Source: Membranipora membranacea
Lineage: Eukaryota > Bryozoa > Gymnolaemata > Cheilostomatida > Membraniporidae
Assembly: GCA_914767715.1 (NCBI GenBank)
Contig: OU612073.1
Coordinates: 3,350,001-3,410,000 of the forward strand
Direction of reading: 5' to 3'
DNA length: 60,000 bases
In this document: positions 9,521 through 50,199 of the stretch, one piece after another
How the letters are laid out: each line of letters begins with the position of its first letter
How positions within the stretch are numbered: the first letter of the stretch is position 1
Notes under the pieces: model-generated
Told to the model about the DNA's origin: nothing
The model's database searches: none
The model's input: only the letters and a program-made list of their open reading frames with translations
Position numbers and translations under genes: made by a program

Positions 9521-9819
9521 CTGCAAGAAAAAAAAAGGAGCAGACAACTTAAGTTTAAGGATAGAAGTCATGATGTACAAGCAGGGAGAGTACAAGGAGA
9601 CACAATGCATGAAATACTTTTTTTCTATAACCAACCTAGTTTTATCATTTCTTTCACTGGAAAATGATATTTTGGTTGTGAAATAAACACATACATACGT
9701 ACATACATACAAGCTTATAACCGCTAACATGTTCGCAACCTCTTTATATAGCCTGCCACCTCAGCTAGCCAAAAGTGGTGCTAGCTTACAGTTACATTAA
9801 AGCACCCCGCCCCAAACTA

Positions 9820-28497: not shown

Positions 28498-31400
28498 TCA
28501 TTGTCGCCTGACCCAGGGATATTCCAGCAGTTCATCAACTGTTGGGCGCCTAGCATGTTCAACAAACAGCTTCTCTATGAAGGTCTTTACTTCCGGGAAT
28601 CCATCGATATCTTTTGTGAACTCTGTGATATCGTCCATGCCATCTTCTGATGCTAGTAACATGAGCGTTGCCAAAGCTTTTCTGGGTGAATGCAAAGCTA
28701 TCGGTGGGCTCATGGTCAGCATCTCAACAACAGCAGCTCCAACACTCCTAAAAGTGTAAATGAGATTATAAATCACAATTTCACTAGCTAGCTATGCTAG
28801 AGTGTCCCCCTTTATTTGCTCATGATTAGAAGATTGATTAATTTTTAAAAAGGCCAACATCAAAACAAAATGCAGGAATTGTTTCACATTTTAACATTGA
28901 ACCTCTCTTGTTATAAGACAGAACCTACCAGATATCTGCACTCTTCTCGTAGCTGGCAGGTGGATTTCCGACGACTTCTGGAGCCATCCAGTACACACCA
29001 GTTTCATGCTTTTCATGTCTCATGCCGTCATTGCAGAAAGCTGACAGGACTTTACTGAGGCCTCCATCGGCTAACTTGATGTTATTTGTATCAGCAGCTC
29101 CCTTTAGAATGTTACTGCCTATCAACAAAGATGATTTATTGGTGTGACAACATGAGGGGGTCGTTGGACTGGTTGCAAGAGTTTACGGGGCTCAAATTGA
29201 GTGAATTGCTGAGAAAAACTCATCTTGTATGAACTATCAGCCATTCACTGCAGCTCCATGGATCGATCTGATGCTATTTTGAATGCTCTTAGAGCCATGA
29301 AACTACTTCCCGGTTAGCACTGAGCTCAAAGGTTCAGTTTGCACTGAGCTGTGTACGCTACAGTGGGCTGTCGTAGCTGAGTGGTTAGGGTCTTTGATAT
29401 TGGCCGGCGTGGTTGGAGTTAAAGTCTAGTTAGCGGCAGATTTTTTTGATGGGTGTTCTCAGGTCTAACCTTGGGAATAGATGCACATTTCGAAGGCGAG
29501 CCAAGAGATGACAACTCAGCTTGATCTAGGCCGACCTCAAAATTCACATGGAGACATGGTGATTGAGAGGGTAATATTGTAACATTTGTTCTACATTTTA
29601 AATCGAATGGGTTGATGAAACATGCATATATGCATGTTTCTTCAACCCATTCAATTTAAAATGTAGAACAAAGCTCTATTCTTCCGAATCGTAAGTAATC
29701 AACATCACTCAGATTCTAATGACGGGCTGTTTCCATTTTTGAAGAAGTTTTTAAAACACATGTTTTTGAAATTCAGAGGAATTGGCCTTTGCAAAATAAC
29801 AGAGTGGATTTTTTCTCTTAATGATTTAGGGAAATTATTTTGTCTTTGAAAATAGTTTACCCATCCAGCACAGGGAGCTTGTTATCGAAAGACAAACACC
29901 TTCTTGATAAATGAAGTTGAGAATAGTATGCTTACATTTAATATCGCAGTGAACAATCTCTTGTCCATGGAGATAGGATAATCCCTCCAGAACTTGCTGA
30001 ATGTATTCGCGAGTCTTCGGTACAGGAAATGGACCATTTTGTAGGTCATCCTTAAGAGATCCAGCGGGTGAATAGTCAGAGCATACAAGGAGCTTTCCTG
30101 TAAGTTTGAAGACTTCCTGTATTTTGTTGACTTTTTCGTGCTCAAGAGCTTTGATTTTGTTTATCACATCATTCCAATCTTCGTCTACCTTTAATTATCG
30201 AAACAAAAGAACTCTGTGTTTGGTTACCGTTTGGATGTGTGTTGATTAGTGGTTCATCAATGTGATTACTAGCCATTGGTTAGTATTGACACTTTATCTT
30301 TTAACATAATGACATTGAATTTAATAGGATCGCAAGTACACAAGTATACATTTTAAAGGCCGCCTAAAGGATCATATCCCACTATTAGTAATAGTTATCA
30401 AGCACTTAGAGTTCTGTGGCTAGCTTCAGATTAGACTCTGGCCTCGTTTCAGGCGACATACAATGAGAGGGGTTACACAACCATCTCATAAACCCCAAAG
30501 GTATCTTACCTTGAATGCACCTTCTATCAATCTAACGGCAACATCATCTCCTGATTTCTCGTTCTTACATAATGTGACCTCTCCAAAACATCCGCGACGC
30601 AGACTCTTTACCTCTTTCCAATCAGCCAGGTCTACACATTAAATTGACAGGTAAAACTTTAGAGAAATTCTTAAAGAATATTGCCTCCCCCCCCCCCCCC
30701 ACAGAATATTCAAGTATCAGTAATTGCCGAGAGGTTAACCATTCCTTTGATGATTGGTGATTTCTCTCCATAGCAGCCATAGAAGTATTAAAGGCTTTAA
30801 CATGTACGCCAAACATTCGCTCTGTCAACAGGTAGTTTCCAATTTTTTGTAAGTCAAATAAAGAAACTGTAAGTGTACCTGTCTCACTAGCATATACTAC
30901 GGCTACCTCAGCTGGCGGTTCTGATGAGTCCAATTCGGCTCCTGTAACACAAAAATGTAGCAAATTGTTCATTTGAAGGCTTTTCTCATTCGTACACAGC
31001 CTGGGTTATTAACTGGCTATTGAGAAGACGCTCTGTCTCTGCATGGTCATTAGCAAAAGCAAATAGAAAAGACCATCGTGATTATTCAATCCCCAATCTT
31101 CACTCTTCACAAATGGGTTTCAATGAGAAGGGTAGATTCCCTATGCTCATATCTGTGATGCTGAACTTGGGGTATACGCTATATATGCTAAAGAAAAACA
31201 TTTAGGCTGCGTTAGCTTTTTGCAATGAGAAACAGTATTCTTTGTTTACGCTATAGACAAAATGTCTTGTGTGAAGTATTTTATGATCTATATAATATAA
31301 ATTCTAGCTCATCTTTTGGTAACAAGGGCATGCTGTGGAGATTGGGAGTTTCCTATATCTTACCGCCCTGTGGCGCTGCTGCTGCACCACCAGTTACATC

Positions 31401-33108
31401 TGCAATCTGCAGTAGGCCTGGCTCTCTCTGGTCTGTAAAAAAATATTGGTCATCATCTGGATTGTGACTTCGTGACTTAGAGCAATGAAACAAATACATT
31501 TTAAATTTTCAAATCTCAGTCACACAAAGGTATAAACAATAAACATTGTATAGTCTTTATGACAAGGTTCTTTCATTGTGTGGGGGAGGAGGATGAGGGA
31601 CAAACAGAAAATTAAGTATACTTATGGGGCCACTTATAATACCTGTCCTGCCTTGGCTATCTTTGCCTATCACAGAAAAAGGTACACCCAAGGGTGGTTG
31701 GAGTGGCAGCAATCAATCCTATAATCCTTACCAATTGGGAAAAAAAAGCAAGCAAATCAATTTTGACATCTCACCAACCCCAAAACTAATTTGGTGATTC
31801 GCTAATCAAGCAATCCAGCTATTCACTCATAAACTTTCCAAACCGTTGCACCACTGTAACACTTGTTTTATCTCTCTTTACACTTGGTCTTGTTTGACAG
31901 CCCTGTCTAAACGGGCCCACTTAATCGCTGGTCGATCGTGTCGGGTGGTGACCCTATACCCTTGAGGGCATACTCTTTTTTCGAAGAGGCGGAGGGGGAT
32001 CTTTAAACAGGATACATATTTGGGGTTCTCGAAGCTTAATAGCATATTGCGAAGAGTTGATAGTGTTTAAATATTGTATAAATCTGTCAGATGACGTGTA
32101 TAGTATTCTCTACATTATATATTTATTATTATATAATATATATAAATCCTGTTCAAGTACCAAAATCCGCCTTTTTTTTGACAGTGTACATTTGGGTTCT
32201 GAGAAAATTCTACTTACTTATACACTTATTTCCCCCAAATTCCAGACAAACCACTGGTTGAAGGTCATTTGTGAGGCAATTGCTACAATGTTTCTTTGGT
32301 TTTATTGATTTTATTGTTAAATCCATACCATATTAGAAATGTAAGTGCTTTTTTAACTGAGAAGAGGAGGTATGTTGATCAGTCAACTTCGAAAATTATA
32401 TTGTGAAATAGTTAAGCCTTACTGACGCAAACTTAATTTCACCAACATCTTAATGTTTCAAAACTCACCAATTGCAAGATTAATTCCTGGCCTAGCCAAT
32501 GCAGCAATTACTTGCCCCTGAGCCTGCAACATGGCGCCTTGGGTCTCGATCATAGTCAGGGCCATCTGGTTCATAGAGGCCTGTAAAGCAACGTTCTGAT
32601 TCTCCAATCTATCAATGTCGCGCCTGTTGTTCTCTCTATGGATTCTTTCCTCTGCGAGTTTGATGTACTGATCTGCGTTCACTTGCTGCTGCTGTTCCTT
32701 GTGAGCGCCATAATCACGCTGAAGATCCTGTCGCTGCTCTGCCTCCTCATTAAGTTTTTCTCCCAGGCCGTTCAAGTTCGTTTTTGCGACCTCAAAATTA
32801 ACTTCAAGCTTGTGTCTTTCATCTCTCTCTGTATCGAGCTGATTGGACATACTTCCTACTGCTCCTTGAAGCCTGATTCTCTCATTTTCTTCTGTGGCCA
32901 GTTTGTAACTTAAATTTGTTCTTTCTGTTCTTTCCTGATTAAGCTGGGTATTGAGGCCACTCACTGCTAGTTGAAGTGTATTACTGTTCTGTCGTTCCTG
33001 CTCTAGATTTTGGTTGAGTGCCTCCCTTGCTCTTCTCTCTCCAATTATTTGATTTTGAAGCTCAGATCTAACATCCCTGACACTCCCCTTTGAGGCACCA
33101 CCACCCAT
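28498..33108 (-). CDS. Gene A: coiled-coil MAP3K-like (pseudo)kinase
   Basis: Seven exons join in frame to 528 aa: 33108-32469, 31432-31364, 30941-30879, 30631-30510, 30188-29936, 29118-28929 and 28747-28498. Residues 1-213 are one Glu/Arg/Gln-rich coiled-coil exon starting MGGGASKG, a good N-myristoylation signal. An Ala/Pro linker follows, then a kinase domain from about 258. Motifs resemble STE11/MEKK kinases (YIQQVLEGLSYLHGQEIVH, GVYWMAPEVVG) but several catalytic positions have changed: the Gly-loop is LRRGCFGEV, the VAIK lysine is R291, HRD is H378-C379-D380, and DFG is D400-G401-G402. D380, N385, D400 and APE are kept. Without the lysine I predict weak or no phosphotransfer. A 5'UTR exon ending at 34044 (CACTG|GTAAGTG) is likely. 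Closest relative: gene B, downstream in this list. Function unknown. Confidence 0.82.
29360..29450 (+). mobile_element. tRNA-like sequence (SINE head), degraded
   Basis: TAGCTGAGTGGTTAGGG fits a Pol III box A; GGAGTTAAAGTCTAG is a weak box B about 35 nt later. The arms do not fold into a tRNA. It lies in an intron of gene A. Confidence 0.4.
29585..29672. mobile_element. Near-perfect 88-bp hairpin element
   Basis: The arms run TTTGTTCTACATTTTAAAT to the centre CATATATG and back, 44 bp each with only a few mismatches and essentially no loop. Likely a solo fold-back MITE in an intron of gene A; no second copy was seen here. Confidence 0.75.
31935..32035 (+). repeat. Dispersed repeat family R1, copy 2 (partial)
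   Basis: GGTGACCCTATACCCTTGAG, GGGCATACTCTTTTTTCGAA and GAGGCGGAGGGGGATCTTT match the first half of the copies at 21965-22150 and 36838-37015. In an intron of gene A. Confidence 0.6.
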
Positions 33109-35563
33109 ACTGTTGTCGTGAACTATAAACTACAAGTAAAGTAAATTCAGTCATCATATCACACAGCAAAAATACCTTTCATTGTTTTTCGATCTCATGT
33201 TAACTTGGAAATTTTCTATCTGAATAAGACAGTGGTACTGGTGCCAAAATCCAACAAAGATATACTCAATGTAATTCATTTACTCATGCCACTCATATTT
33301 TTCTGATTATCACTGTCAAAAAATCTCAATTAGATGTAATATCCCGCCAATTTCCCCCACATAGGCCTAGTAGCCCAAGTGGTTAAGACTATGGCAGCTT
33401 GAGTCTGACCAACACCACCACTACTATGCTTGATGAGTCAAGTGCTTAATCAAATAGCAAGTAGCCTTGATCCATTTGAACCACTTTTGTTGGTGGCTTT
33501 GGTCTACAGTACCCCAGCCAATGTGCTGGCTCTCATCACCTCAATCATACAGAGCCAACGCGCTGCTTGCAGTGCCCTCCTGACTATCACATTACAGGCC
33601 CACTTGGTTCTGTCTGTTTCACACAGTTTATAAGTAATGTATATGATACTACATATTATTACTTTATTGTCAAACCTGTTGTTAACTTACCTGAAGGGTT
33701 TTGGTCAGACCTAAACCATCACCAAAAATACAAAGACAAATATTATGGGCAGCCACAGTGGCGAATTTGATCACACCATACATACATGCCATATGATTTT
33801 TCACTTTGTGACTCAGCCAACAAAGCAGCCATAATTGCAGGCATTGGGTCATTTTTGTATAAAACAATTGGCGATCTTGGTCAACCAGACAATATCATTG
33901 TTTACAGAAAATCTCGCTCGGCTTTTACTGAAACAAAAATTTCCCCCACAAGACGAAAGGTCATAAATATCATGTCAAGTAGCATTCATATGTTGTGATG
34001 GCAATAAGTATAAAAATTAAAAGGTGCGGAGTCAAACACTTACCAGTGAGGATGGCTGAATATTCAGCTGTTGATAGCTAGCCCTGGTTCAGCATAAAAG
34101 ACGCACAGCAGTTTTCCTTACTTGATTGAGGGCAAGGTTGGATGCTTTTTTTGTCAAAATAGATACAAATTGTCCTGTTAGACCAGAAATATGTAAGCTA
34201 GCCTTCTGCGAGCACAAGCAAATGAATTTTATCACATAGCTAATATCCAAGGTATCCATGGGCCTATGTGTGTTATATCTTATGACAATGCGCACCATTT
34301 GTGATAACGGAAACGATATTTTGTAATTCCCCTGATACGTAAGGCTAGTTTAGGGGAATTTGGCCGTTATCTTTGGGATTCACCCTTTCTCACCCTGATC
34401 AATGAAGAGGGAGTTCATTGCCCTGATAACTAAGGTTTTTATCTCTCAACAAAGGCTGTTTAGGGGTGTGTTAACAATTAACAATGTGCTCGATAGAAAC
34501 AGCTTTCACTCTTAGTTTCTTTATCTAGAGTTCTGATTGTTTTATTATCATGATTATAGTCATGTATTTCAACAATAAAGTAAAACTGATCTTTTCGGCT
34601 TTAAAGTGTAACCTTAGAAAAATTTCCTATTCGAATGCAAGAAATTGAACATATATCCGAGGAATTACCCTCTCATATGCAAGGGTCCCCTACCTGGTGC
34701 TCATGTAATCAACCGATGTCAGTCCGAGAGATGCAACTAACCACAGTAGAGGAGATGCTGATCCTTATGCATCATGATATAGGAATATTAATGGAAAACA
34801 GATTAGATTACCACCTCATATGCAAGGGTCCCCTACCTGGTGCTCTGTCATCAACCGATCTCGGTCTGAGAGATGCAACTAAACACAGTAGAGGAGATGC
34901 TGACCCTAATACATCATAATATAGGAATTTCAATGGAAAACAGATTAGCCTGCCTGCCTGCCTTGACTAAATCCTTTACCAGGGTACCCGATTGGGTCCT
35001 TTTTTACACCACTGTTACAACTATGAGAAATATTTATAGAAAGAATATATTCATTGATTTAGGTCATAGTTTTTACATTAGACTGAGAGTGTGAGGAAAA
35101 ACACTGTTTAAAGGATGATTCAAATGTAATCTAAGGAGTCACATGGGGAAGAGGACTTGTAGCAAATAATTATTTGTTGCTAATATACAATGACTATGTT
35201 TGATTATCAATTGTTTGATAAATTTCTATCTTTATCAATGTTGCTCACTTTATTATCAAGCCTTGTAATTGGGTCAATGCAAAATAATCGGTACACTAAC
35301 TAAGACAGTGGACTGAAGCGAGAATAAGAAAATGGCACACCTGGGACAACCTTCAAACTATAAAATGAGAAATAACCAGCAGTAACTTTAATTCTTGCTA
35401 GTTAAAACTGGGGCTAGCCAAAATTGAGTCACCCAAGAACTCAAGCTAATATTTGATCCTATAGGGTTGTTTTACTCTTCCTCACAACTTTGTAAACATA
35501 AACAATGACCAGCATTATGACACAGGATAACAATTGTGAGGAGATGCACACACACAAACTTAC
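33109..35563. other. Spacer between coil exon C and coil exon A, with a predicted 5'UTR exon
   Basis: No kinase exons were found here on the minus strand, although coil exon C ends in a donor at 35563. A strong donor CACTG|GTAAGTG at 34044/34043 with an acceptor before 33129 (CTTGTAG) suggests a private 5'UTR exon and promoter for gene A. It also holds a tRNA-like segment near 33367 and a 143-bp tandem duplication (34672-34950). Confidence 0.5.
34672..34950. repeat. Tandem duplication, period 143 bp
   Basis: CTCATATGCAAGGGTCCCC starts at 34672 and again at 34815; both units continue through GAGAGATGCAACTAA, AGTAGAGGAGATGCTGA and ATGGAAAACAGATTA with few changes. A plus-strand reading frame spans both copies but has no other support. 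Confidence 0.85.
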
Positions 35564-36089
35564 CATAAATAGAGTTGAGGGCATTGATGACTTGGCTCTG
35601 AGCGTTCAGCATCCTGTTTTGACTTTTAAGCACCGAGATCTGCAGCCGGCCGAGATCTTCTTCCAGAGTTTGAACTTTCTCATTAAGTTTTCCATTCTCC
35701 TCCTCCAAATGCTCAATCTGCACTTTCTTTGCTGCAAGTTCCAACTCACATTCACTGATCTTTTTCATCGCCTGTTCATAGTTGGTTTCACTTTGTTTCC
35801 TTGCACTTTTCTCTTGTTCCAAAGAACTTTGCTTATTGCGTAGCTGTATTTGGAGGTCGTTTGTCTTTACTCTCTCTAGATCCAAATCTTTTTGTTTAGT
35901 GCTCAGCTGGGTCCTCAAGCTTCGGGTTGTTGCCTCCTCTGAGTGAAATCTATTCCAGCCTGCTTTTGCTTCTGCTAAGCGTTTGTTGAGATCCTGGTCG
36001 TTCTCAACAAGGACATTTTCTCCATCGCCAATAGATATCGTTATCGAACCGCCAGACACTCTCATACCTCCATATAATCTCATTGCCAT
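35564..36089 (-). CDS. Coil exon C: type-II coiled-coil first exon
   Basis: ATG at 36089 opens 175 codons ending NALNSIY with a phase-1 donor (TATG|GTAAGTTTG). Residues about 30-165 are a continuous heptad-rich coiled coil (TQLSTKQKDLDLER, EELEEENGKLNEKVQTLEED-like). The N-terminus MAMRLYGGMRV lacks a myristoylation glycine. It is clearly homologous to coil exon D at 47145-47904. No kinase or other downstream exon of its own lies before gene A, so it most likely splices to gene A exon 2 at 31432, which has the right phase (giving ...NSIY-D-QREPG). A 5'UTR exon ending at 36501 (TAGGA|GTAAGT) with an acceptor before 36095 is predicted. The separate-gene alternative cannot be excluded. Confidence 0.7.
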
Positions 36090-36837
36090 ATTGCACTACA
36101 AATTTAAATTTAAAAAAAGTTGTTTGAATATTTTGTGATGCAACCATAGTATGTTCCCGTCACCTCAGTTGCAGGAGCATTGAAAGACTTCTGTTTGAGA
36201 AACAAAGTTAATTCAATGTTCTGATATAATCCCTACCTCTTTTATGTATATTGTTACACCGGGTTGAAATGTAAGATGATGTTGAGCTGGTTTGCATAAT
36301 GAAACGATGCAGTATAATGGAATTAGATTCTATTTAGACATCATGATTATATGTATGCTATCTTAAATGATGATTAGACCAATCAAATAGTTAGCACCAA
36401 CCTTATGATATGAAGGGAAGCTGATATACAGGGATATGGTGTTGCATGTAAAATGATTCTTTTGAGAGACTGGCTGTTGAGTTGTGGAAGACAAACTTAC
36501 TCCTACCATTGGCGAACTTTTCCTGACAAAACTTAAAACTAAACAGCAATTATTATTATTCCCACTACCATTTACTTGTACATTAGTTGCTTTTATCACC
36601 ATTGAAATTACAGGCATAGCGTCACTTTGTCTTGCAATCATTACCAGGTGTATAAAAATAATAATGGTGCTTAGGAAGTTGACTTATCGAGCTATTGAGT
36701 ATTTCAATAATCAAGAAATGCTCAGATATCGATGATACAGCTGTGTATTTTAGAATATTGTGATTGAGCTGAATAGAAAGACAGCTCTTAGACACTATCG
36801 GTCACCATACTTTAAACCACTCAGCGCATTTGGTACT

Positions 36838-37015
36838 GGCGCCCCATTCATCCTAGCCAGGTCCTTGCAGAACAGGACTAGAAATACCGGAGGTCCACTT
36901 TGTGTTGCAAACCCCACATGCAGTAAAAAGATCCCCCTCTGCCTCTTCAATAAAAAGAGAAGCCGGAATCCCGGCGGGAGAGGGTATAGGGCTCGGCTGG
37001 AGTACCATGGTCCCA
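36838..37015 (-). repeat. Dispersed repeat family R1, copy 3
   Basis: The reverse complement carries CCCTATACCCTCTCC, CGGCTTCTCTTTTTATTGAA, GAGGCAGAGGGGGATC, GACCTCCGG, TAGTCCTG and GACCTGGCTAGGATGA, in the order of copy 1. Confidence 0.65.
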
Positions 37016-37985
37016 GTAACTGTACTCTTTAGGGGAAAACCCTCTCCCCAATGGCTTAATCAGCTCAGAAATTTTCTCAGCTCGACCTCATGGAAATACA
37101 GAGATTGTACCTGACATGTTGAGAGCTTTGGTGAGTAGTTAGCCTAGTGATAGCTCCCTATGCAGAGGATTAATCAAGGTTTGCACTCACTCACCACCCA
37201 AATCAGGTTGCCAGGTTAGACAAGTGGTTGGCAGGTTGGATTACTGCACTCTGACGGCCGGAATTCAATTCCTATGCATGCACTGTTATTACCTGAGAAG
37301 CCAAGTAAGGTAGAGCGTTTCAATGGGTACCAGTGCTTTCTGCGATGTTGGTTAGTAAATTTAGCAGATGTCAAGTAATCTGAGTGCGTTTTTTCTGTAG
37401 GATACCCTCATTTATCACCTCAATACAATCTAAGCACATATTTTATTACAGAACTAAACGCCGAGTCAATGTAACAACAAGTTTCATCTGCTTCAGTCAT
37501 CACCCATCGTTATTATTAGTCAGGTAAGTCAGGTGCGAATGACTCTCTATACCATTATATGTCCCATTGCCAACTTCTTTATATTTACAGCTCGCCACAA
37601 GGGCCAAACAGAACTACTTGAGGTAACAATGTTACTCTATTCAGCCTAGTTTCAGATTGCCTTGTCGTAAAAAAGGCATATGCAAGAGTTTATCCTGGTT
37701 TAAGACATAACTGTTAGCAAGGAGGTACACCTTGTTGTTAGTAAGGCCAAAAGGTTGACCGGGTTAACATGCAAGTTTGTTACGTTCTTTGGATTCATCA
37801 ACTCGGTTTTTTCACCCTTCACCTTTTTCTTTTATTTTTTAAAAATCATATAAAGCTAAACAGACAATCATGTAGAAAGCTCAATTTTTAATAGGTTAAC
37901 TACAGAAAATATGAATGATATACGGATATAATCAAGCAGTAGAAGAAATCGTATCATTTAAACCTTTTACAATATTCATGCAGAG

Positions 37986-38059
37986 ATATCTGCTTCTGGT
38001 GCAATATCCGCTTCTGGTGCTATATCCGCTTCTGGTGCTATATCCGCTTCTGGTGCAAT
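37986..38059. repeat. Four-unit 18-bp minisatellite
   Basis: Unit ATATCCGCTTCTGGTGCT repeated four times with one or two changes. Confidence 0.9.
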
Positions 38060-38551
38060 GGTACCATAGAGGTCTAAAGTACTCGCAGAAGGAAAAGTTT
38101 GTTTTTTCACACAGGCTTGAAATAATAAAAAGTTTTGCAAGCTCAGCCTCTTTACTTTACGCTCCCACCGACTAGTATAGCTAACCTAAACTCCGGCTAA
38201 TATTCCCTCATCTAATGTATAGTTATCTACATAAAATGGCTTAATATAAAAAAAGTCGACTCTGAACTTTCATCCCTATCCCTTTTTGTTGGAATGAGAC
38301 TGGAAAAACCGAAACTAAAGAGTGAAGAGAAAAACTACAGCCAGCCATCAAGTTTGAATAGTGCTTCAGCTGTGTACAATGTTAATGAGCGTGATGATAA
38401 GAATACACGATTATTGTGGAACAGTGAACTCAAAATAAGAACTAGCAATCAGCATTGAAAGAAGCATTTATGAATTTATGATCATCCATACTCAAAAAGT
38501 ACACAACATAAGTTCCTTATCTCTGCAGGTTTGTTTCGCGAATATGTCAAT

Positions 38552-41500
38552 CTACTCAGCTTTCTCATTTTCCTCCTGGATCCAGGAGTCTTGGATCATT
38601 GATTCAGCAGTCGGACGCTTGTCCTTCTCAACAAACAGCTTCTCCAGGAAGCACTGCACTTTCCCTCCTTCGATCCCTTTGATGAACTTTTTTACATTGA
38701 TTCCATCCTCAGCTGCTAGCTCCAACTTTAATGCAGCTTTTTTGGGTGAATATGAAGCCATCGGCGGCTTAGTAGTAACCATCTCAACAACAGCAGCTCC
38801 AAGACTCCTTCAAACAGAAATAGGACTTCTCTTTCTCATATCAAGCCTTGTACACATTTTATAATGCAGAAACTTAGTCTCACTTGCAGCTGTATTAAAA
38901 TTCTCAAGCTGTGCAAATTAGAGTTGGTACAACATGGTGTTGAAAAATAATACACTTATACAACTACAGTCTACAACTATACAACTATAGTCTGTGAGAA
39001 GCTGGATATCACACTAGCCTTGTCATGCAGTCACTTTTTTGTTTAGATGGCAAAACCTGTAACTACAGAGCCAAATAATGTGGCCACATGGCAAGAGATA
39101 ATATCGCTTCTCGGCCTATTGGCTAAGATCAAAGTGTCACTGCCAATGGCCGATTAGCGCCAGTTCAGTTTTGGCAGCTTGCTGCACACTTATGATTAGG
39201 AGGTCCTCTATGGCCTCACCTCTAGGATGCATTCTAGTTTTCTAGAACGTATCACATTCTCAGTATGAGGATTAGGGCACCTTGCGTCCCTCTTTAGGGG
39301 CAGCCCAATCTTCTGTTTCTTAGCAAACAGCAAGAGATAATATCACAACTTTTGAATCCACGTAAAACTCATTTGCCTACAGAGAGCTCAACAACAAGAA
39401 ATGGGAAGTCAGGCTGTAGGAAAAAGAAGTTGATTTTTCACTCAAAGCGATGAGTTAATACCATAAGCAGGGAGTCATTGTGATTTACCTTACCACATAT
39501 CTGCACTTGACTCGTAGGACTTGGGCTGGTTACCCACAACTTCAGGCGCCATCCAGTATACACCATGTTCTCCTCTTTGTTGCATGCCTTCGCTGCAGAA
39601 AGCTGACAGGACTTTGCTGAGTCCTGTATCAGTTATCTTAATTTGATCTGAGTCAGCTACCTTCAGAATATTACTGCCTGCAAAAGTGAGGATTTTAGAT
39701 GTGAGTAGGTTTGTCGAATGTGACTCAAAGCTTTCCTTTGTGACAATGAACACAGTTTTATGGGTTGGAATAGTGATATACCGATATCATAGAATTCAAG
39801 GTCTGAACAGCTCCTTCATCTAAACACGGCTGACCAACAAACAACCAGTGTGTGGTGTATGCTGGATGAAACAATGCTATAATATGTCATGATAGTGGCT
39901 TGCGATTCAGACCTCATTCAGACCTTGTTTGAACGTCATTCAGACCCAAATTATGAGGACCCGATTAGTTACATTGAAGGATTTATTTCATTGCCATTCG
40001 AATTACCATGTTCTGGTTCCCATCCAGTGTGAAAGACAAGATTATAAGAGACAGGGGAAAATGAGGAAAGAGAAAAAGACATACCAATAAAATTAAAGGG
40101 TCTATAGTATTACAATTAACCACTCTAGCGCTTGGAAAGGGGTTATCCTCTCTCAATAGAGGAACATTCATAACCTGACGAAAATTGGACTTTCTGAATT
40201 GACCACTCATGACAAGGTTGACATTCAATGTTGTGGGTATTTCCCATAGACATGTTAGACATGTGTGCCACAGACATCTGTGTTTTGTCTATGGTTTTTC
40301 CTATTATATGGCATCAGATCATTAATATAGCTAGAGTAATTGTATTTTGTGAGTCAACTGCGTCAGAAAAGGGCAACACTTAGTACATCAAGACTGAATT
40401 GACATCAGAACTTGAATCTGCGACTTGAATTGCCATTACTACCCTTGACTTTGAAATGACTGCGAGACATAGAGGTCAAAAAGGACAAATTGCTTACATT
40501 TTATGTCGCCGTGTACGATGCCTAGTCCGTGAATGTAGGCTAGCCCCTCCAAGACTTGGCGAGTGTATAAGCGAATCACAGACTCCAGAAGAGGACCACC
40601 TCGGAGCTCATCCTTCACAGACCCAGCTGACAGGTACTCAGTACACATCAGAAGCTTGTTAGGCAGTTTGAACATTTCAAGGATTTCAGCGACCCTCTCA
40701 TGCTCTATTGATTTTAACTTGTTCACCTCATTGTTCCATTCTTCGTCAGGCTAGACAGGTTAGAAAATGAAAATGTAAAAAATAACTATCATTTTTATTA
40801 GGTATAAGTAGTTTATAAGTTATTTTTTTTCAAAAAGCTGCTGATGGTTAATCTTCTATTACCTACAGGACGGAGACTGGGACTGGTTGAGATGGATAAG
40901 ACCATGCGTATTTATAACACAGATTGACATGAATATCACAGTAATATAAGAATGCTTATATTACTGCTGTATCTTAAACACAAAAAAAACACACTTGCAG
41001 GCCGGTACATGCTCCTGTCAAAAATACATTACACTGCATTGCATACTGCAGTGCATTGCAATGCTTTACCATTGCAATGCATTACATTGCATTGCATTGC
41101 ATTGCATTGCATTACATTACATTACATTACAAGCGAGCATGCCTACCTACATACAAAATCATGCATATATGTATACGGAATAACAGCTTATTATGTTTTA
41201 GAATATCATTGATCTCTCGGTAGCCAAATGTAAAACATATTTTCAAATCAACTCAAACCAAGCAAGAATTACAAATCAATTAAGTTTTTATCGTTTAAAT
41301 AAAAGTATTGCTTCTTAAACATAGTCATATTTACAAACCTTGAATTCACAAGGGATAAACTTTACAGCAGCATTGATCTCAGTTTTCTCATTCTTGCAGA
41401 GAATGACTTCGCCAAAGAATCCGTCTCCAAGCTTTGTTACTGCAGTCCAATCTTTAAAATCTAAACAGTAAATGAATTAACAAAATGATGAATTTTAAAA

Positions 41501-43941
41501 GACATCAACATACATCTATATATGGCGGTAAATATAAATGATAAAGGATATTGACAGCTAATCTCTTAGGTTCTAATTATTTTTTTAGCTTCCTGCGTGG
41601 ACATGGGTGATCTTATTTGGGGTTGACATGTCAACTCCAACCAGGCACATCTGTTAAAAAATCGCCGCAGGATACAGGTGTTTCCAGGATTGTTTACCAC
41701 TTCAGAGAAACCTTTTTCTGTAATGAATTTGGCTATGCTTCTACAATGACCTGTTGGGGTCCATTGCTTACTCACTAAAACTCAAACAAAGTTTTTGGAT
41801 GATGGTGATTTTTATGGCACCAAACACTATCTCAGCATCAGAATATTATCGATATAATTTATCCTCAAGTAATCTATATGTCATGATTTTTACAAAGCAA
41901 TCTATAGACACTTGTCTCTCCTGTTTCTGAATGAGGTTGGTTCTAACTCAAATAAAGTTTACTGCCCTGCTAGTGTTACCCGATTCGCTGATGTAAATGA
42001 CTGCTCCATCTTCAACCTCCTCTTCAATATCTTCAACCTGTGCGCTGGCACCTAATGCTGCTGGTAGGCCTAAGAGACCAAGGGATTTAACCATCGGTAG
42101 CTGTTCCTGTCCTCCTGTGGCCCCTGCTGTATAAGAATCTTTGTCAAACAGGAGGCAATAATTATAAATATCTCAAACATTGACATGCAAATTAAACTCA
42201 AAGGTGGAAGCATCTTCTGTGTGAAATACATCTACTTGCAACAAAGGAGGATAGCTCCCAACACAACGGCACTATTTATTAAAAATTGAGCACTTGTACC
42301 CTAGCGGGGTCGAGTGTTTGTCTGAATATACTATTTTCGCTCCCCTGATGACTAATTTATTGGCAACAAAGCTTTTAACGCATCAGAAGTAAAGTTCTGG
42401 CATCCCAATTCCTAATCAATATCCAAGATGTCAGAATGTGGAAGGTGTCATTTCTTTTATCTTATTTGCAAAGTAGGTTCATTGAGAAGGTCGTTGAGAA
42501 GGTAGGGATTTGGCAACTGATGCTGTCTGAAACTGCTCTGCGCATGAAGGTGACATACGTTTGTTTCTGCAGCATAGGGCCTGAATTAATTCACCTAAAC
42601 TGAGAACCTAAATTGGAAAAACAATCGAATCCCACAATTTGGAATTATTTTGGCCTAAATGGAACACTTGGATTGCCATCTCATAAACTTGAGCTTTGGA
42701 GTTGTCTTCCTTCTACCACCATCACTGGGCTGCAGAGATAGACTATGTCTCAAGGCTATCCTGCAGGCAGAATGTTCTGCAACTGTTATTGTTGGTGAAA
42801 AAACTCTCCGCATCAAATATTTGAATCATACATAATATAACAACATACCAATAATGTTCTACTTAAAAAAAAAATTTTTTTATTGCACAATACCTCTACA
42901 ATCTCTGTGCAGAGAGGTAACCCAGCATATAATTATTTGTAAGGAAAAATACCAAACTGCCTTAAGAAAAAGAGATTGTTTCGCCTTAACAACACTGCTG
43001 ACCCCTGACATAGTTATTGCATTGGAAACAGTTCAGGTATTTTAAGGTATATTAGAGGAACATGGAAGGACCAATACAGCGCACTGAATTCATAAAATGA
43101 TCATTTAATATTTCACCTGGCAGTCCATGTTACAATACTTTGGCATTCATGAATAATGCTTTTATGCACACTCACCGATGGCAATCCCAGTTAATGCACC
43201 AATAATACTACTCTGGGCATGCATCATCGCAGCTTGTGATTCTAGCATTCTATTAAACATCTGGTTCTGAGACGACTGCATCGCTTCAATCTTCTTCTCC
43301 GACTTATCAATCATATCCTTGTGAATTTCCCTATGTTCCTTTTCCACCGCAAGTTTAACTGTGTGATCTGTGTTTAGTTGCATCTGGCCCTCCTCGAATT
43401 TCTCCCTACGTCCTTTCTCATCAGAAAGTTGACCTTCAAATTTCTTTTGGTTTTCTTGAAGCTTTTTTCTTTCCTGTTTCTCAGAGCTAAGATGCGCTGT
43501 TGTATCCGTCTTAAATGTTTCCAGGTTCTTGATTTGTTCTTTGAGTGCGCGTTTTTCAGCTTCCGCTTCTTTTTTATAATCTACCAGTGTTTTGATTTGC
43601 CTTTCGAGTGCGCCTTTTCCCTCTGTAGTAGTAGTCTGAAAATCTTCCAGGTTCTTGATTTGTGAGGTAAATCTTTCCAGGTCATTAGATTGTTCTTGAA
43701 CCTTTGTTTCAAGTTCCTTCTTTTCAGTTTCAAGATCCTTCTTTTCAGTTTCAAGTGTATTCTTTTCAGTTTCAAGTGTATTCTTTTCAGTTTCAAGTGT
43801 ATTCTTTTTAGTTGTTAATGTATCTATTGAATCTTGCAATTCCTTCCCTTTCGCAGCAATCTTTTTACTTACATCCTCGTTTATCCCTTCGACAGTTTTA
43901 TCAAGCTTGCCTTTGCTAACTATTCCCAAGATGTTCCCCAT
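38552..43941 (-). CDS. Gene B: coiled-coil MAP3K-like kinase, tandem paralogue of gene A
   Basis: Six exons join in frame to 575 aa: 43941-43176, 42126-41980, 41460-41339, 40750-40498, 39677-39494 and 38807-38552. Residues 1-255 are one coiled-coil exon beginning MGNILGIV, a good N-myristoylation signal, with a run of identical heptads (NTLETEK). The kinase domain from about 305 has an intact glycine loop LGDGFFGEV and ATP lysine K338 (AAVKF). HRD reads H425-G426-D427 and DFG reads D446-T447-G448; N432 and APE (473-475) are kept. Kinase exon lengths 122 and 253 equal those of gene A. The motif order and LYTRQVLEGLAYIHGLGIVH suggest a MEKK-like origin. I infer a membrane-tethered, self-associating kinase that may still be active; substrate unknown. 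The ATG was chosen because it follows an acceptor (TTTTATAG) by one base; a 5'UTR exon ending at 45617 (AAGAG|GTAAGTG) is likely. The last acceptor (TTTGAAG) is weak. Confidence 0.82.
39091..39344 (+). mobile_element. U2 snRNA-headed SINE, full-length copy with target-site duplication
   Basis: The head ATCGCTTCTCGGCCTATTGG at 39103 continues GCTAAGATCAAAGTGT, matching the first ~35 nt of metazoan U2 snRNA (stem I). An unrelated body follows, then a short tail. The perfect 15-bp direct repeat GCAAGAGATAATATC lies at 39091-39105 and 39330-39344. This is the signature of LINE-type retrotransposition. The rest of U2 (branch-point region onward, Sm site) is absent, so this is not a U2 gene. It sits in an intron of gene B. 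Confidence 0.85.
41033..41129. repeat. CATTG pentanucleotide microsatellite
   Basis: Repeats of CATTG/CATTA, cleanest at 41070-41129, in an intron of gene B. Overlapping reading frames here only translate the repeat. Confidence 0.9.
43710..43806 (-). repeat. Coding 21-bp tandem repeat (one coiled-coil heptad per unit)
   Basis: The unit AAGAATACACTTGAAACTGA (plus one base) repeats about four to five times within gene B exon 1, giving NTLETEK / DLETEKK heptads in a row. The unit length equals exactly one heptad. Confidence 0.88.
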
Positions 43942-44280
43942 TCTATAAAACAAATATATATGCTTTGGGATGTCTTTTTTTACGCAAAAGGAAATTTGAC
44001 GGACCATTTAATATAGGAAATTATTACATACATAATTATTAGACAGTAGTTTTTTCAGAAATATTTACATTTTCTGCCTTGTGACAGGTTTTTTCCAACA
44101 GGCAAGTGAAATGTGTTAGTTGGGCTTGGTCAGAAGGAAGTTAGAATCTGAGGCACTCCCTTTAAAATTTGATATAATATTTCAACTTAACTGATGACAC
44201 AATCCATACTCTAAGCCAGGACTAATATATGTTTCAAGACTGTGTACTATGTAAGTTTGTTAAAGGCTGTGAATTTGTAA

Positions 44281-44440
44281 ATGAGTAGGAGAGGTATACA
44301 CACGAGGGTGCTGGGGGCTGGAACAATCAACAATGAAAGCTCCCCCAGTGGGACTCGAACCCACAACTCCTGCGGCACTAATCGCCTGGCAGTGAATAGC
44401 AAGCGCGCTAACTGCGCCATCTCACCACCCCCAAAAAAGA
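44281..44440 (-). mobile_element. tRNA-derived SINE
   Basis: On the minus strand: GGTGAGATGGCGCAGTTAGC (box A TGGCGCAGTTAGCGCG), then GTGGGTTCGAGTCCCAC (box B) and a non-tRNA tail GGGGGAGCTTTCATTG...CAGCACCCTCGTGTG. The D and T stems are intact, but the acceptor and anticodon stems do not pair, so it is not a functional tRNA. A related fragment is at 22960-23050. Confidence 0.7.
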
Positions 44441-45407
44441 ATAGGTCGATGGCGCTAATTAGATAGCCGCTATTCAAATTACTCATTTATGAATTTGTAA
44501 ATGAGTAAATTTATTTTGATGCATTATGCCTTCATATAATTATGCAGTAAATTGTTCATGGAGAATCTATTTATTGCTTTTGGCTACAACTTAGTTTTGA
44601 GCATATAACAATGACGTCAAGTTTCCATATTAATTGTCCTACCATCTTTGTATTTCACACATATCTTTGCAGCGTAGCGTTTGGATTAATCCAAACGTGG
44701 CTGAGTTCTCAAATTAAAAAATTGCCAAAGTCGTCAAAGCCGCCAATGCCACGATGAGAGAATGTAAGGTTCCATACATGGTCAAAATGTAAATAGGTCA
44801 ATCAGGCCACTTTGTGGCAGTGTCGCTATGGCGCAGAGAAACTCATATATCAGAGTTGATCTACATGCAGTATAGACTGGTATAAACTTCACAACCCAAA
44901 AATATTTCGCCAAAATAGTTTAATCAATCAAAACAATTGTAAAATAATAGTAATGAGCCATATATATAAGGTCTAAAAACTGCAACACATACTTTGTTAT
45001 ATTGTGACAACGGTGGAATAATATTGGCTTGGCGTAGGATGCTGGGAAGTGAATAGCGGGATTACTAATAAGTGCTATCAATCTGCCCTGTTTTGGGGAT
45101 GGTCAGGTGGCAAAAATTGGTTAGCATGAATACTATTCACTGCCAGCAGTCACAGGATGGAGGCCTAATGTGGGAGAGCTTTGATTGATTGCTCCAGTAC
45201 CCATATGTGTGTATTAGACATCATTACTGATACCTACTGATGGCTAGGACAACATCAAATGCGATCAGTTTGAGGCTAGAAAGCCTCTATACGCTGCGCA
45301 TAGAATCCAACCTCATTGCACAACAAACCACAAGATCAGACCATGGTCAGACCAGACCAGGTCCATATGGCATTGCCTGTATTAAACTGGGCTGCGATAT
45401 TAAGAAT

Positions 45408-45561
45408 ATCGCTTCTTGGCCCATTGGCTAAGATCCAAGTATCACTGCCAATGGGCGATCAGTGCCTGTTTTCATTTTTTGGCAGCATGCTGCACACTCA
45501 AGTTCAGGAGGTCCTCTACGGCCTCATCTCTGGGATGCATTCTAGTTTTCTAGGATGTATC
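45408..45561 (+). mobile_element. U2 snRNA-headed SINE, copy 2
   Basis: ATCGCTTCTTGGCCCATTGG then CTAAGATCCAAGTATCACTG, then the same body blocks as the 39091-39344 copy (GATCAGTGCC, GGCAGCATGCTGCACACT, AGGAGGTCCTCTACGGCCTC, TTCTAGTTTTCTAG). No target-site duplication was recognised. Confidence 0.78.
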
Positions 45562-46399
45562 TATTCAATCGTCAAATCTACATGATGAACGTAATAGACT
45601 CGTGTTTAACACTTACCTCTTGGTCAGAAGTTGTTTTCCCACACACTGTCACAGTAATATCTAGTATTGGATGATATACGAATCACGTTTGCAGTCCGTA
45701 AAAGCAATGTGACTTATGGCCAATGAATCGAATATTTATCTATGCTTGTGTAAATGGATTTAGGCTAAGCCTGTAAAAACTGGTTTTTATCTCAGCCTGT
45801 GAGCTAGTAATATAAATATTTATATCTTTTAATATGATAAGCATAGAAATATGAAACATGGGAAATGGTGGCTCATGACACCTGCAGATATCTCTAAAAT
45901 ACACAACTTGCAATCCATTTTCATGCTTCACTGAGTCCTTGTTATTACGGCAACTGCAATGCCAAATCCACTAGGCTACGTGCTGCAACATGCAACAATG
46001 CTTCATGTTCGCCATAAACATTGTTTCTAAATCATTGCTATGCATCCAGTTTATTATCAGTGAATTTATTGCAGTATAATTGTGGGGTTTGTTTTTTGTT
46101 ATGAGCGTAATTCACCCTCACAGTTCTCATCACTAGAGAATACACTAGTCGCATACATAACCATACTGTAAAATTGATGGTGGTGGACATCATTCCAATT
46201 GCCTCTCGGATACTGATTCATAGTATATGTAAATATTTACAGGTCCTGGGCCCAAAAACGATACTGGAAAATATTGACAATACAACATATGCGTCCATCA
46301 ACTAAGAGGAAGATGTGCGGTTGACTTCATCATAAGGATTTGAGGTCTTCATATATAAGTCATAATTTATAGGTTATTATGTTCTATTCCTTTTTAGTC

Positions 46400-46490
46400 A
46401 GTCAGTTTTTGCGCAATGGTAAGTGTGTCTGCCGCATGACCCGCCAGTTGTGAGTTTGAAACTCATCCGGTACCAAAAGACATTGCGACT
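46400..46490 (+). mobile_element. tRNA-like SINE head
   Basis: TGCGCAATGGTAAGTG (box A-like) and GAGTTTGAAACTC (box B-like, with a perfect T-stem) about 40 nt apart; the outer stems do not form a tRNA. Confidence 0.45.
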
Positions 46491-47144
46491 TCAACCGAAC
46501 ACATAGTCCCTTCAGATAAGTATTCAAAATAATGTAGGTCTTATGCATGTAAAACAGCATCGTATATGTACATAAAAGAACCATCCTCTGTGGTATAACT
46601 CCATACATAAGGACACTGTCACCGCCCACTCCATCTCCAGCCTTGTTTTGATTGCTTAACGCTGGGTACCTACCAGCTGTCAGTGGATGATGAGTGGCAA
46701 TAATGACTTCGAAACCTAGTGCTCGCATTCAGAACTCTTCCTATGCATGCAAGTCATCATCAGCATTGACAAACAGCAATATTGTGATCCACACCTTTTA
46801 ATAAGACATATCTGTTTTCGCATATAGGATGATGAAAAAAAAATTGATTGTAGTATGAAAAACCATTGCATGATCGATCACCAATCACAAGTTATCATCC
46901 CTATATGAGTGATTGGGTTGTGAGACCACATCATCCGATTAAATAGCATGTGTAGGTTTTAGTTATCAAATGGATGGTTTTGCCATGAATTTGCTTTCGT
47001 TTTTCGAATTGATTTGCAATTGCGTGCTTACATATTCAACGTTTGAATTTAGGCCACTGAGTCCACGCTTGAATTCAACGTTTGAAATCTCCACCACCCA
47101 TGATACGATGATTGAAGACAAGGTAGAGTAAAACATGAACATAC

Positions 47145-47904
47145 CGTAATTGGAGATCAGAGCGCTTACAACTTGGCTTTGTGCCTGAATCATAAAACTT
47201 TGACTTCCCATCATTCTACATTGCAGAAAGCTCACATAGTCTTCGAGTTCCTTGGTCTTTGCCGTCAGTTTTTGGTTATCCTCTTTGATATAATCAATGT
47301 CTATCTTCTGCACTGCAAGTTTAGCTTCAAGGTCACGATTTGTCGCCAACAAATTATCAACTTTCTTTTCAATGTCCTTTCTCATCTCTTTCTCACTCCT
47401 GACTTCCTTCTCAGCACTCGATCTCTTAGATTTTTCAGTATACAGAGATGTCTGTGTTTCACTCAGTTGGCCTCCGAGGCGACGAGATTTAGCCTGCTCT
47501 TGGTTTAATGCAGTTTGTTTACTGCTCAGCTGGCCTCGCAGATCCCCTGAAATTCTCTGTTCCTGCCTGTAATTGTTCCATCCTGTCGTAGCAGACTTAT
47601 ATTCAATTTCAAGCATCACTTCCAAGCCTCTTTTTTGTTCCTTCAAGCTTCTTGTTTGTTCCTCCAAGCTTCTTGTTTGAACCTGCACAGACCAAAAGTT
47701 ATTTTGGTACCTCTCCCTTTCTTTCTTTTCAGAGAAATACCTGCTTTCGTAATGCTCTTTTAGCTCTTGTGCATTTCTTCTTTTACTTTGCTCTTGTTCA
47801 AAAACCCTTTCAAAGTAGTTTCTCATTTCCTGCACACTTGAAACATCGTTCCTCAAGCTATCGACCCTTTCATTGTATTCCTCACGAGAAACGTTGTCGC
47901 CCAT
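47145..47904 (-). CDS. Coil exon D: type-II coiled-coil first exon
   Basis: ATG at 47904 (MGDNVSREEYNERV) opens 253 codons ending SALISNY with a phase-1 donor (TACG|GTATGT). It is almost wholly coiled coil and is homologous to coil exon C: both share GWN, LRxQLSxKQ, IEYIKEDNQKL-like and xxSQxxxLxAQSQVxxAL segments. Asp after the glycine makes N-myristoylation unlikely. No downstream exons lie before gene B, so it most likely splices to gene B exon 2 at 42126, in the correct phase. A 5'UTR exon ending at 48252 (CTTTG|GTAAGC) and an acceptor before 47916 (CTTCAG) are predicted. Confidence 0.7.
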
Positions 47905-49488
47905 TCTCTTGTTCACCTGAAGTTTATTTATATACAACATTACAAAATATACTACTATATACATTCAGAGATAAAAAATTCTAATACCTCAATAATCTTG
48001 CCAAGAGGGCCCAATTTAAAAACAACACTTTTGACCCCAAAATTAACTTTCAGATGTCACTGTGACGCAACATGAACTATTTGAGAGGCTTGGATAGGGA
48101 AAATGACCGTTAGCCATGAGTGCACATATCGTAAAATATACAAAAGCTTTAAAGCCATATATCACACTAACAGTAGATTTGATTATCCCACATCATGTAT
48201 AACATGTACTGTGAAGGTAACAGCAGTCAACAAAGAAATGATTAAGCTTACCAAAGAGAATTGAGCAGATTTACCCTGAATGGAGGAAGAAGCAAGAGAA
48301 AATTGAAAAGTGAGAAAAGTGAGATCAGAGCAGGCTGACTGTCCAATGAGCAATTACTCAGTGAGGGTAATGCATTATATATATAAAATGACTGATGATA
48401 ATTATGATTGCGTCCCATTTGGACTATGGCTGCTATCATTGGAGGGTTAGCAACAGCATAGGTGTCATATATTTTTATGAAATGTTGGTGATGCGAGCAC
48501 ACAATTCATATAATATCTTTAGGGTTAAGCCCACCCTTCAAAGGTTCCCGGCCATAATGCCATGGTCTTAAGCTGACTGACTGACTAACCAGGAGAGGTT
48601 CATAGACACTGCAACAATCCGTGCTCAAGATTTGCGACATAACTTAAAAAAATCAACGAAAAGGAAATGTTGTCCCTTAAATAATATCACACAATAAGCA
48701 GCTAATTCCCAAAAACACTGTCGGAAATAAAAAAAATCATCAATAAAAGCCTATGTTTGCAGAGCCTGACAAGTCTGAAAGAGCACGCCAGAGTGATGTT
48801 AGTGTACAATATACATGGATCTCCTATTATCTATAGTCGAAGAAAATGTAAATCTTCTTTTCACTTTTGCTACTGCCTTGAAAACTGGCTTCAAAACTTT
48901 CTATGGTGACACTGTATTAACACTCTCTTTTGCTTTATCAAAAACGTTACAGAATTATACAATATTTCAAACAAACAATAAAAAAGATGATCAATAAAAA
49001 ATATTCTAAATGACAGTATATGCATGTGTTTGTATCAGGGCATAAATTGGCTGTCAGTGAATAAGAACTCATTTGATTATCTCTAATCATGACAAAACAT
49101 CACCCATAGAGTCTCAAGGTCAATATCACCTAATAGTCCCAATGGTTTATCTCAGAGGTATAGTTTTAGATACCTCATATCCTAATATTTTCTGAAACAC
49201 TAATGTTTTCACCTTGAATATAATTCCACATGAGACTGTTTTTGCTGAGATAGCCAGGTTGAAAATATATATTTTTCTATAGCTCAGATTTTAAAGCCAG
49301 GACTAGCATCTCATTCTTAGTGACTGGTCACTCAAAACTCGTCAAGTGGATAGACCAGAGGCTAAATGTAGTGTCAGTAGGCCCTACTCCCCTCCCCAAC
49401 CCCACTGGGGCTGGGCTATATCGTGTGCAACATTTAGCATATTATGAAATTTGGGGGCTGAATTCCTGATAAATCACTATTATTATTG
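47905..49488. other. Spacer upstream of coil exon D
   Basis: Contains the predicted 5'UTR exon end at 48252 and presumably the promoter of coil exon D. No other gene was recognised. Confidence 0.4.
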
Positions 49489-50199
49489 ATGAAAGCCGCT
49501 TTCATATCAACCTTGGCTTCGGTATGTTCTTGATTGATATGGCAGGCAATATGAACTATAACTATATAGTTTTAAGTTTTCCCTGGTGAACATTTGCTGG
49601 AAAGAGTACTTCCAGTTCACTTTACGGGCATGATCATATCTGATCAACTCTATAACCTGCGGTTGAACTGTCCTTGCTTTCTCAATGCTGTACTTATGTG
49701 ATACGATGGTCATCCAAACAAAGATCATCTATGGCCTCTGACGGTCCTACCATAGGATATAATATCGAAATCAGAAGTAAAAATCACAAATTGTCAGTGG
49801 CGCAATGATCAGACAAAAAATGGGTGTCTCATTATGTTTAAAAGGCTGTGAAATAAATCGAAAATAGGGATCTCTAAGTATTTCTCAAATCACACAAACC
49901 AAGGTTAGAGCTAGTTCTGCACGATTAATGCAATATTTTAAGACTAAAAAAGTACATAGCACTTCTTGGTGAAAATTATGTTTAGTGTAAGAAATTGTCC
50001 ACCCCCATTTCATCTAGGAAGTATATGACATATTGGTTTGGTATTTTTGTAATCTTTAACGAGATGTTTTTTTCCACATACATCATTTTGAAACAGTTTA
50101 CTGGCGCTCTAAGTTTCAGTGACTGAATGTTGCCCTTTGCTCAGCAGATAAATATGGATTTATCATGTGAGAATTCTCACACATGTCACACAAGTAAAG
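49489..50199 (-). pseudogene. Decayed duplicate of the last two DFFB exons
   Basis: 50199-50095 matches DFFB exon 6 and 49700-49489 matches exon 7 at the nucleotide level, including the shared donor CCAGTAA. The catalytic-strand Trp codon of the NLDH segment region is TGA, a frame break lies near the Cys/His cluster, and the LVHIACH region has drifted (NLKLYSYSSY). The SIEKARTVQPQVIELI and KVNWKY segments remain readable. It is a partial tandem copy of the DFFB 3' end; no copies of exons 1-5 were seen nearby. Confidence 0.82.

Follow-up and report, generated by a model that had tools for sequence, protein, structure and literature searches.

Within a 60,000-nucleotide stretch of Membranipora membranacea DNA (“the window”), the minus strand carries two kinase bodies in tandem, each preceded by two exons that encode long coils. 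Read 5' to 3' along this strand, the order rebuilt from the DNA is coil C, coil A, kinase body A, coil D, coil B and kinase body B, with the unit of C, A and kinase A, at the higher coordinates, preceding that of D, B and kinase B. An earlier note on this DNA had reversed the order of the two units, while its order within each unit was right. The exons, phases and splice sites that we rebuilt agree with the coordinates given there, the one ambiguity being a NAGNAG acceptor at exon 2 of kinase A. The features are:

47145..47904, minus strand: coil exon C, type II head, 253 codons, phase-1 donor ACG/GTATGT
43176..43941, minus strand: coil exon A, type I head, 255 codons, start MGNILG, phase-1 donor
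41980..42126, minus strand: kinase A exon 2, linker, NAGNAG acceptor, start at 42126 or 42123
41339..41460, minus strand: kinase A exon 3, glycine loop, AAVK
40498..40750, minus strand: kinase A exon 4, helix-C glutamate, HGD
39494..39677, minus strand: kinase A exon 5, DTG, APE
38552..38807, minus strand: kinase A exon 6, last exon, with stop
35564..36089, minus strand: coil exon D, type II head, 175 codons, phase-1 donor ATG/GTAAGT, paired with C
32469..33108, minus strand: coil exon B, type I head, 213 codons, start MGGGASK, phase-1 donor
31364..31432, minus strand: kinase B exon 2, linker, accepts phase 1
30879..30941, minus strand: kinase B exon 3, linker, phase 1 in and out
30510..30631, minus strand: kinase B exon 4, onset of the kinase domain, with a degenerate glycine loop and with VAVR where AxK would carry its lysine
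29936..30188, minus strand: kinase B exon 5, helix C without glutamate, HCD
28929..29118, minus strand: kinase B exon 6, DGG, APE
28498..28747, minus strand: kinase B exon 7, last exon, with stop

As the earlier note had described, each of the four coil exons (“heads”) starts with ATG, is stop-free over 175-255 codons and ends in a phase-1 donor, and exon 2 of both kinase A and kinase B accepts phase 1. Around all four head ATGs, A is found at position -3 and G at +4.

The genes of the window are split, as in eukaryotes, and the neighbours of the kinases look animal-like. The duplicated kinase locus sits between pieces of a DFF40-type nuclease and exon-sized open reading frames on the plus strand (22683-25482) which we take to resemble the kinase STK40. 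Pfam identified minus-strand pieces of the DFF40 apoptotic nuclease (51590-51811, 52863-53168 and, as a weak match, 54142-54459), and the list of open reading frames contains an additional similar copy of the last exon of this gene at 49507-49728, also on the minus strand. Farther away on the minus strand, the reading frame at 16203-16598 has a RING-finger start (PF00097, 9.8e-06, above cut-off), and that at 9239-9760, which is without a Pfam match at E up to 0.1, presumably resembles the N-terminal domain of a glutamate receptor. Rfam gave no match at gathering score, and ARAGORN found no tRNA genes.

Both kinase bodies are recognized by the Pfam Pkinase model, with 161.5 bits for kinase A and 142.5 bits for kinase B, and kinase models alone pass the Pfam cut-offs. 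Among solved structures, the best match of kinase A (best of 60 listed) is MAP3K2 (6e-40), making this its closest solved relative. With residues 215-574 of kinase A as the query, at least 205 matches were obtained among 8000 candidates scored; in the best 120 listed, an unnamed PB1-kinase ranks at the top, followed by mixed STE kinases. The corresponding search with residues 160-528 of kinase B returned at least 1516 matches at E up to 0.001 among 7993 candidates scored; of the best 120 listed, two soybean kinases are at the top, followed by MAP3K-like animal proteins, among them some named MAP3K2 or MAP3K3 with 32-34% identity, and many of these listed matches carry PF00564. The kinase bodies may be closest to MAP3K2 and MAP3K3 (MEKK2/3, STE11 group), for which the PB1 domain is typical; they differ from them in that PB1 (PF00564) was found by Pfam in neither protein at E up to 0.01, in that the HRD and DFG motifs are altered in both, and in having a long-helix N-terminus instead.

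Using the common naming of kinase residues (glycine loop, beta-3 lysine, helix-C glutamate, HRD and DFG), we compared both bodies with six MEKK-like proteins. In kinase A, the glycine loop is intact and the beta-3 lysine, helix-C glutamate and two aspartates are all in place, although HRD reads HGD and DFG reads DTG; as judged from these residues, it is probably a working kinase. In kinase B, the loop reads LRRGCFGEV, with its first glycine lost, the lysine motif is VAVR, the helix-C glutamate is replaced by V, and HCD and DGG are found with both aspartates kept. With its glycine loop incomplete and both the ATP-binding lysine and the helix-C glutamate gone, kinase B is probably a pseudokinase, a feature absent from the earlier note.

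Structurally, coil C is predicted by AlphaFold2, with the four heads as input alignment and only C modelled, to form a single helix over residues 7-251 (mean pLDDT 90.9). The heads probably self-associate as coiled coils. The N-terminal residues set the two head types apart. The N-myristoylation pattern used is of the PROSITE PS00008 type, and it fits heads A and B, while C fails due to Asp at position 3 and D due to the lack of Gly at position 2. Type I heads, therefore, would probably also carry an N-terminal myristate and type II heads would not. As a predicted pattern, this agrees with the proposal that the head may affect membrane tethering, with a fit for A and B and none for C and D.

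The pairing of C with D and of A with B, as originally proposed, is evident from tblastn searches (D-C, 38% over 150 residues, E 3e-24; B-A, 28% over 215 residues, E 2e-17). C and D are the closest pair of heads, with 38% identity over 175 codons, followed by A and B with 31% over 209 codons. In a quartet test, only the grouping ((C,D),(A,B)) was retained; the alternative groupings lose 13.8-17.4 lnL units and were rejected (AU p 0.004-0.007). Across the types, the likeness is concentrated at the end of the heads. The last 45 residues are alike in all six head pairs, with heptad-preserving shuffles reaching the observed score in 0 of 500 cases for five pairs and in 5 of 500 for B-C. When these 45 residues are left out, the cross-type likeness is weak, and shuffles reach the score in 8 (A-D), 15 (B-D), 22 (A-C) and 201 (B-C) of 500 cases. 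The invariant residues of this C-terminal block, Q..M..AQ and AL, are located 4 to 9 codons upstream of the phase-1 donor in all four heads. Given that the cross-type likeness is weak outside this block, what all four heads share lies at the seam with the kinase linker, and we regard this common block as the best sign within the sequence that C and D would belong to the kinases.

Conservation by codon position bears on whether C and D are coding. Identity at positions 1, 2 and 3 is 0.53, 0.58 and 0.38 for C/D and 0.52, 0.57 and 0.34 for A/B; for the kinase domains of A and B it is 0.71, 0.77 and 0.53 over 266 codons, with 56% identical residues. Since positions 1 and 2 are better conserved than position 3, the comparison indicates that the coding sequences of C and D are under selection. 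In neutral simulations without indels that started from present C and D, the frames were still open in 0 of 2000 (C) and 8 of 2000 (D) runs at 0.4 substitutions per site, and in 2.6% (C) and 11.9% (D) at 0.1 substitutions per site; the open frames of C and D would accordingly be more than a product of chance. Together, head homology, the grouping test and this constraint support the two head types and the duplication of a unit of type II head, type I head and kinase, both of which the earlier note had put forward.

At the DNA level, comparing the C-A gap with the D-B gap, and the sequence preceding C with that preceding D, gave no match at E up to 0.01, and the DNA matches outside the corresponding gaps are short or are repeats; with no likeness left between corresponding gaps, the two units appear to be old, and this lack of likeness also counts against the model favoured below. 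Two repeats may be recorded here: the D-B gap contains two adjacent copies, 90% alike, of a 142-base unit (34664-34948), and a 157-base repeat, 86% alike and perhaps a mobile element, occurs at 45405-45561 in the C-A gap and at 39100-39253 in an intron of kinase A. At the protein level, none of 70 translated fragments (C-A versus D-B gaps) or 29 (stretches before C versus before D) was conserved as an exon at E up to 0.5, and a tblastn-type search with kinase B as the query gave no match to kinase remnants in the gaps after C and D at E up to 10. The claim that C and D are without downstream exons of their own consequently holds for exons that are kinase-B-like or conserved between the gaps, and leaves room for unrelated exons of their own.

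With respect to splicing, joining C to exon 2 or 3 of kinase A, or D to exon 2, 3 or 4 of kinase B, yields single open proteins with one terminal stop. Cross-unit junctions, from C or A to exon 2 of kinase B, also keep the frame. Donors and acceptors were scored with home-made weights and no trained model; on this scale, C and D have good donors, equalled by 3.1% and 0.3%, respectively, of minus-strand GTs, and the two in-frame positions of the NAGNAG acceptor at kinase A exon 2, 42126 and 42123, are both poor, 34% and 37% of minus-strand AGs being as good. The required introns measure 5018 bases for C and 4131 for D, which is about four to five times the length of the longest other intron (1052 bases) and counts against such splicing. 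By a hand estimate, two phase matches have a chance of about 1 in 9, and are weak evidence alone. Taking these observations together, we rate the splicing of C and D to the kinase bodies at slightly better than an even chance. Phase, donors, frame and the common C-terminal block agree with heads that would be interchangeable, and the locus has tandem variable exons, homologous to each other, that precede a single constant set and share one splice phase, the arrangement by which multiple variable first exons are recognized.

The word “first exon”, used in the earlier description of the heads as alternative first exons, is weakened by acceptor-like sites before all head ATGs, located 6, 21, 12 and 1 nt upstream in D, B, C and A, respectively. 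Among the 1277 minus-strand ATGs, 11.5%, 9.0%, 22.3% and 8.1% have an equally good acceptor-like site, and the four signals combine to a modest p of about 0.03 (hand calculation). These sites, 1-21 nt before the ATGs, speak against true first exons, and the heads may instead be alternative first coding exons with non-coding leaders.

On this basis, we lean, with rather modest confidence, towards an ancestral two-head gene that was duplicated whole and whose heads can be swapped on each body. The ancestral gene would have had two alternative first coding exons, for long-helix heads of type II and type I, before one MEKK2/3-like kinase body, and the whole unit of two heads and kinase body would then have been duplicated. 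Each head, having its own start codon, would join the kinase linker via a phase-1 junction, resulting in one body with either head, and the choice of head would set the position of the kinase and the pairing of active A with inactive B.

Among the other readings, the one that survives best, though we hold it unlikely, regards C and D as separate, coil-only genes, in which the apparent donor is unused and the transcript, encoding a helical rod with a hydrophobic tail, ends in the gap. Beyond the donor, C stays open for 59 codons, to a stop at 46966, and D for 30, to a stop at 35472, while in A and B a stop is reached within 4 codons, and the read-through tails are membrane-like, with a mean hydropathy of 1.56 (borderline) and 1.68, respectively. 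Of the 177 donor-like sites in the window, 8 are followed by such a tail, with C and D counted and exons kept in the control; the tails of C and D are, however, not alike by eye. Past the D stop, poly(A)-type hexamers are located at 80 and 218 bases, and past the C stop at 164, but such hexamers occur elsewhere too (8 and 4 in the gaps overall, 3 and 3 after the kinase stops) and are not decisive. Gaps of 2.5 and 3.2 kb could indeed hold separate genes; against this stand the good donors of C and D and, above all, the block shared with A and B, which ends 4 to 9 codons before a phase-1 donor in all four heads.

A second reading, which we find distinctly improbable, takes the coils as alternative or serial internal exons behind shared non-coding or trans-spliced leaders, rather than exons that each have a promoter, with D maybe joined to B in a double-coil head. 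It would account for the acceptor-like sites that precede all four head ATGs, although their combined signal is modest. Serial splicing of C to A was rejected, meeting an early stop a few codons in at both AGs tried; D to B likewise meets an early stop at two AGs, and is open and in frame via a third AG, 14 nt before the B ATG, but this acceptor is weak, 27.5% of AGs being as good. Finally, it is very unlikely that C and D are leftover heads of formerly complete genes now spliced to no kinase, since, even though the gaps after them lack kinase exons recognizable with the kinase B query and kinase B itself has catalytic losses, both frames are intact over an old divergence with coding constraint, and both donors are intact.

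Returning to the model of swappable heads, we compared it with known systems. PRKG1 is one gene, whereas a tandem pair is present here. Furthermore, PRKG1 is an AGC kinase with cyclic-nucleotide-binding domains, none of which was found here by Pfam. In PRKG1, as in the model proposed here, a single kinase body is combined with alternative N-terminal regions; those of PRKG1 carry different leucine zippers that mediate homodimerisation and confer isoform-specific partners (PMC9417419). These regions comprise 89 and 104 residues, compared to 175-255 for the heads. The UGT1, GCNT2 and clustered protocadherin loci (PMC1885805) likewise have tandem homologous variable exons before a constant set, and differ in not being kinases. 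Duplicated Ugt1 clusters are described there in zebrafish, as are variable exons that seemingly arose from a duplicated unit of two variable exons. For UGT1, a separate promoter is stated for every variable first exon (PMC3325998); there are two heads per body here, and an acceptor-like site before each ATG. The earlier statement that no described family has this layout was, hence, too strong as regards the design, for which PRKG1 (PMC9417419) and the tandem variable-first-exon loci (PMC1885805) are precedents. Each element has a precedent; as a variation on this design the locus is plausible, and it is the head swapping that we infer.

Among the titles of the open-licence papers searched, none combines a MEKK-like kinase, long coils and a tandem pair of active kinase and pseudokinase. 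An alignment of head, linker and first kinase exon (four rows, two of them the hypothetical C-A and D-B proteins) gave 0 matches at E up to 0.01 among 7995 candidates scored, the coil motif pattern was found in 0 of 239 distinct proteins among the listed matches of kinases A and B, and no relative with the same layout was seen among the scored protein candidates. This layout search is weak evidence of absence, because the scored candidates are those sharing most words and coil words are unspecific.

A further possibility, which we advance tentatively and regard as doubtful, is that the locus forms a lineage-specific signalling switch, in which an active and a pseudokinase body share four homologous long-coil heads, type I myristoylated and type II not, and in which the head would regulate location and active/inactive pairing. 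If the junctions from C and D to the kinase bodies are not real, the locus reduces to two tandemly duplicated kinases and a pair of stray coil genes. If they are real, the locus would represent a compact natural case of a MAP3K-like kinase with swappable heads, a design that outlasted duplication of the whole unit while one of the duplicated kinases lost residues needed for catalysis, and it would open the way to studying how the choice of a coiled coil controls kinase location and the pairing of an active kinase with a pseudokinase.
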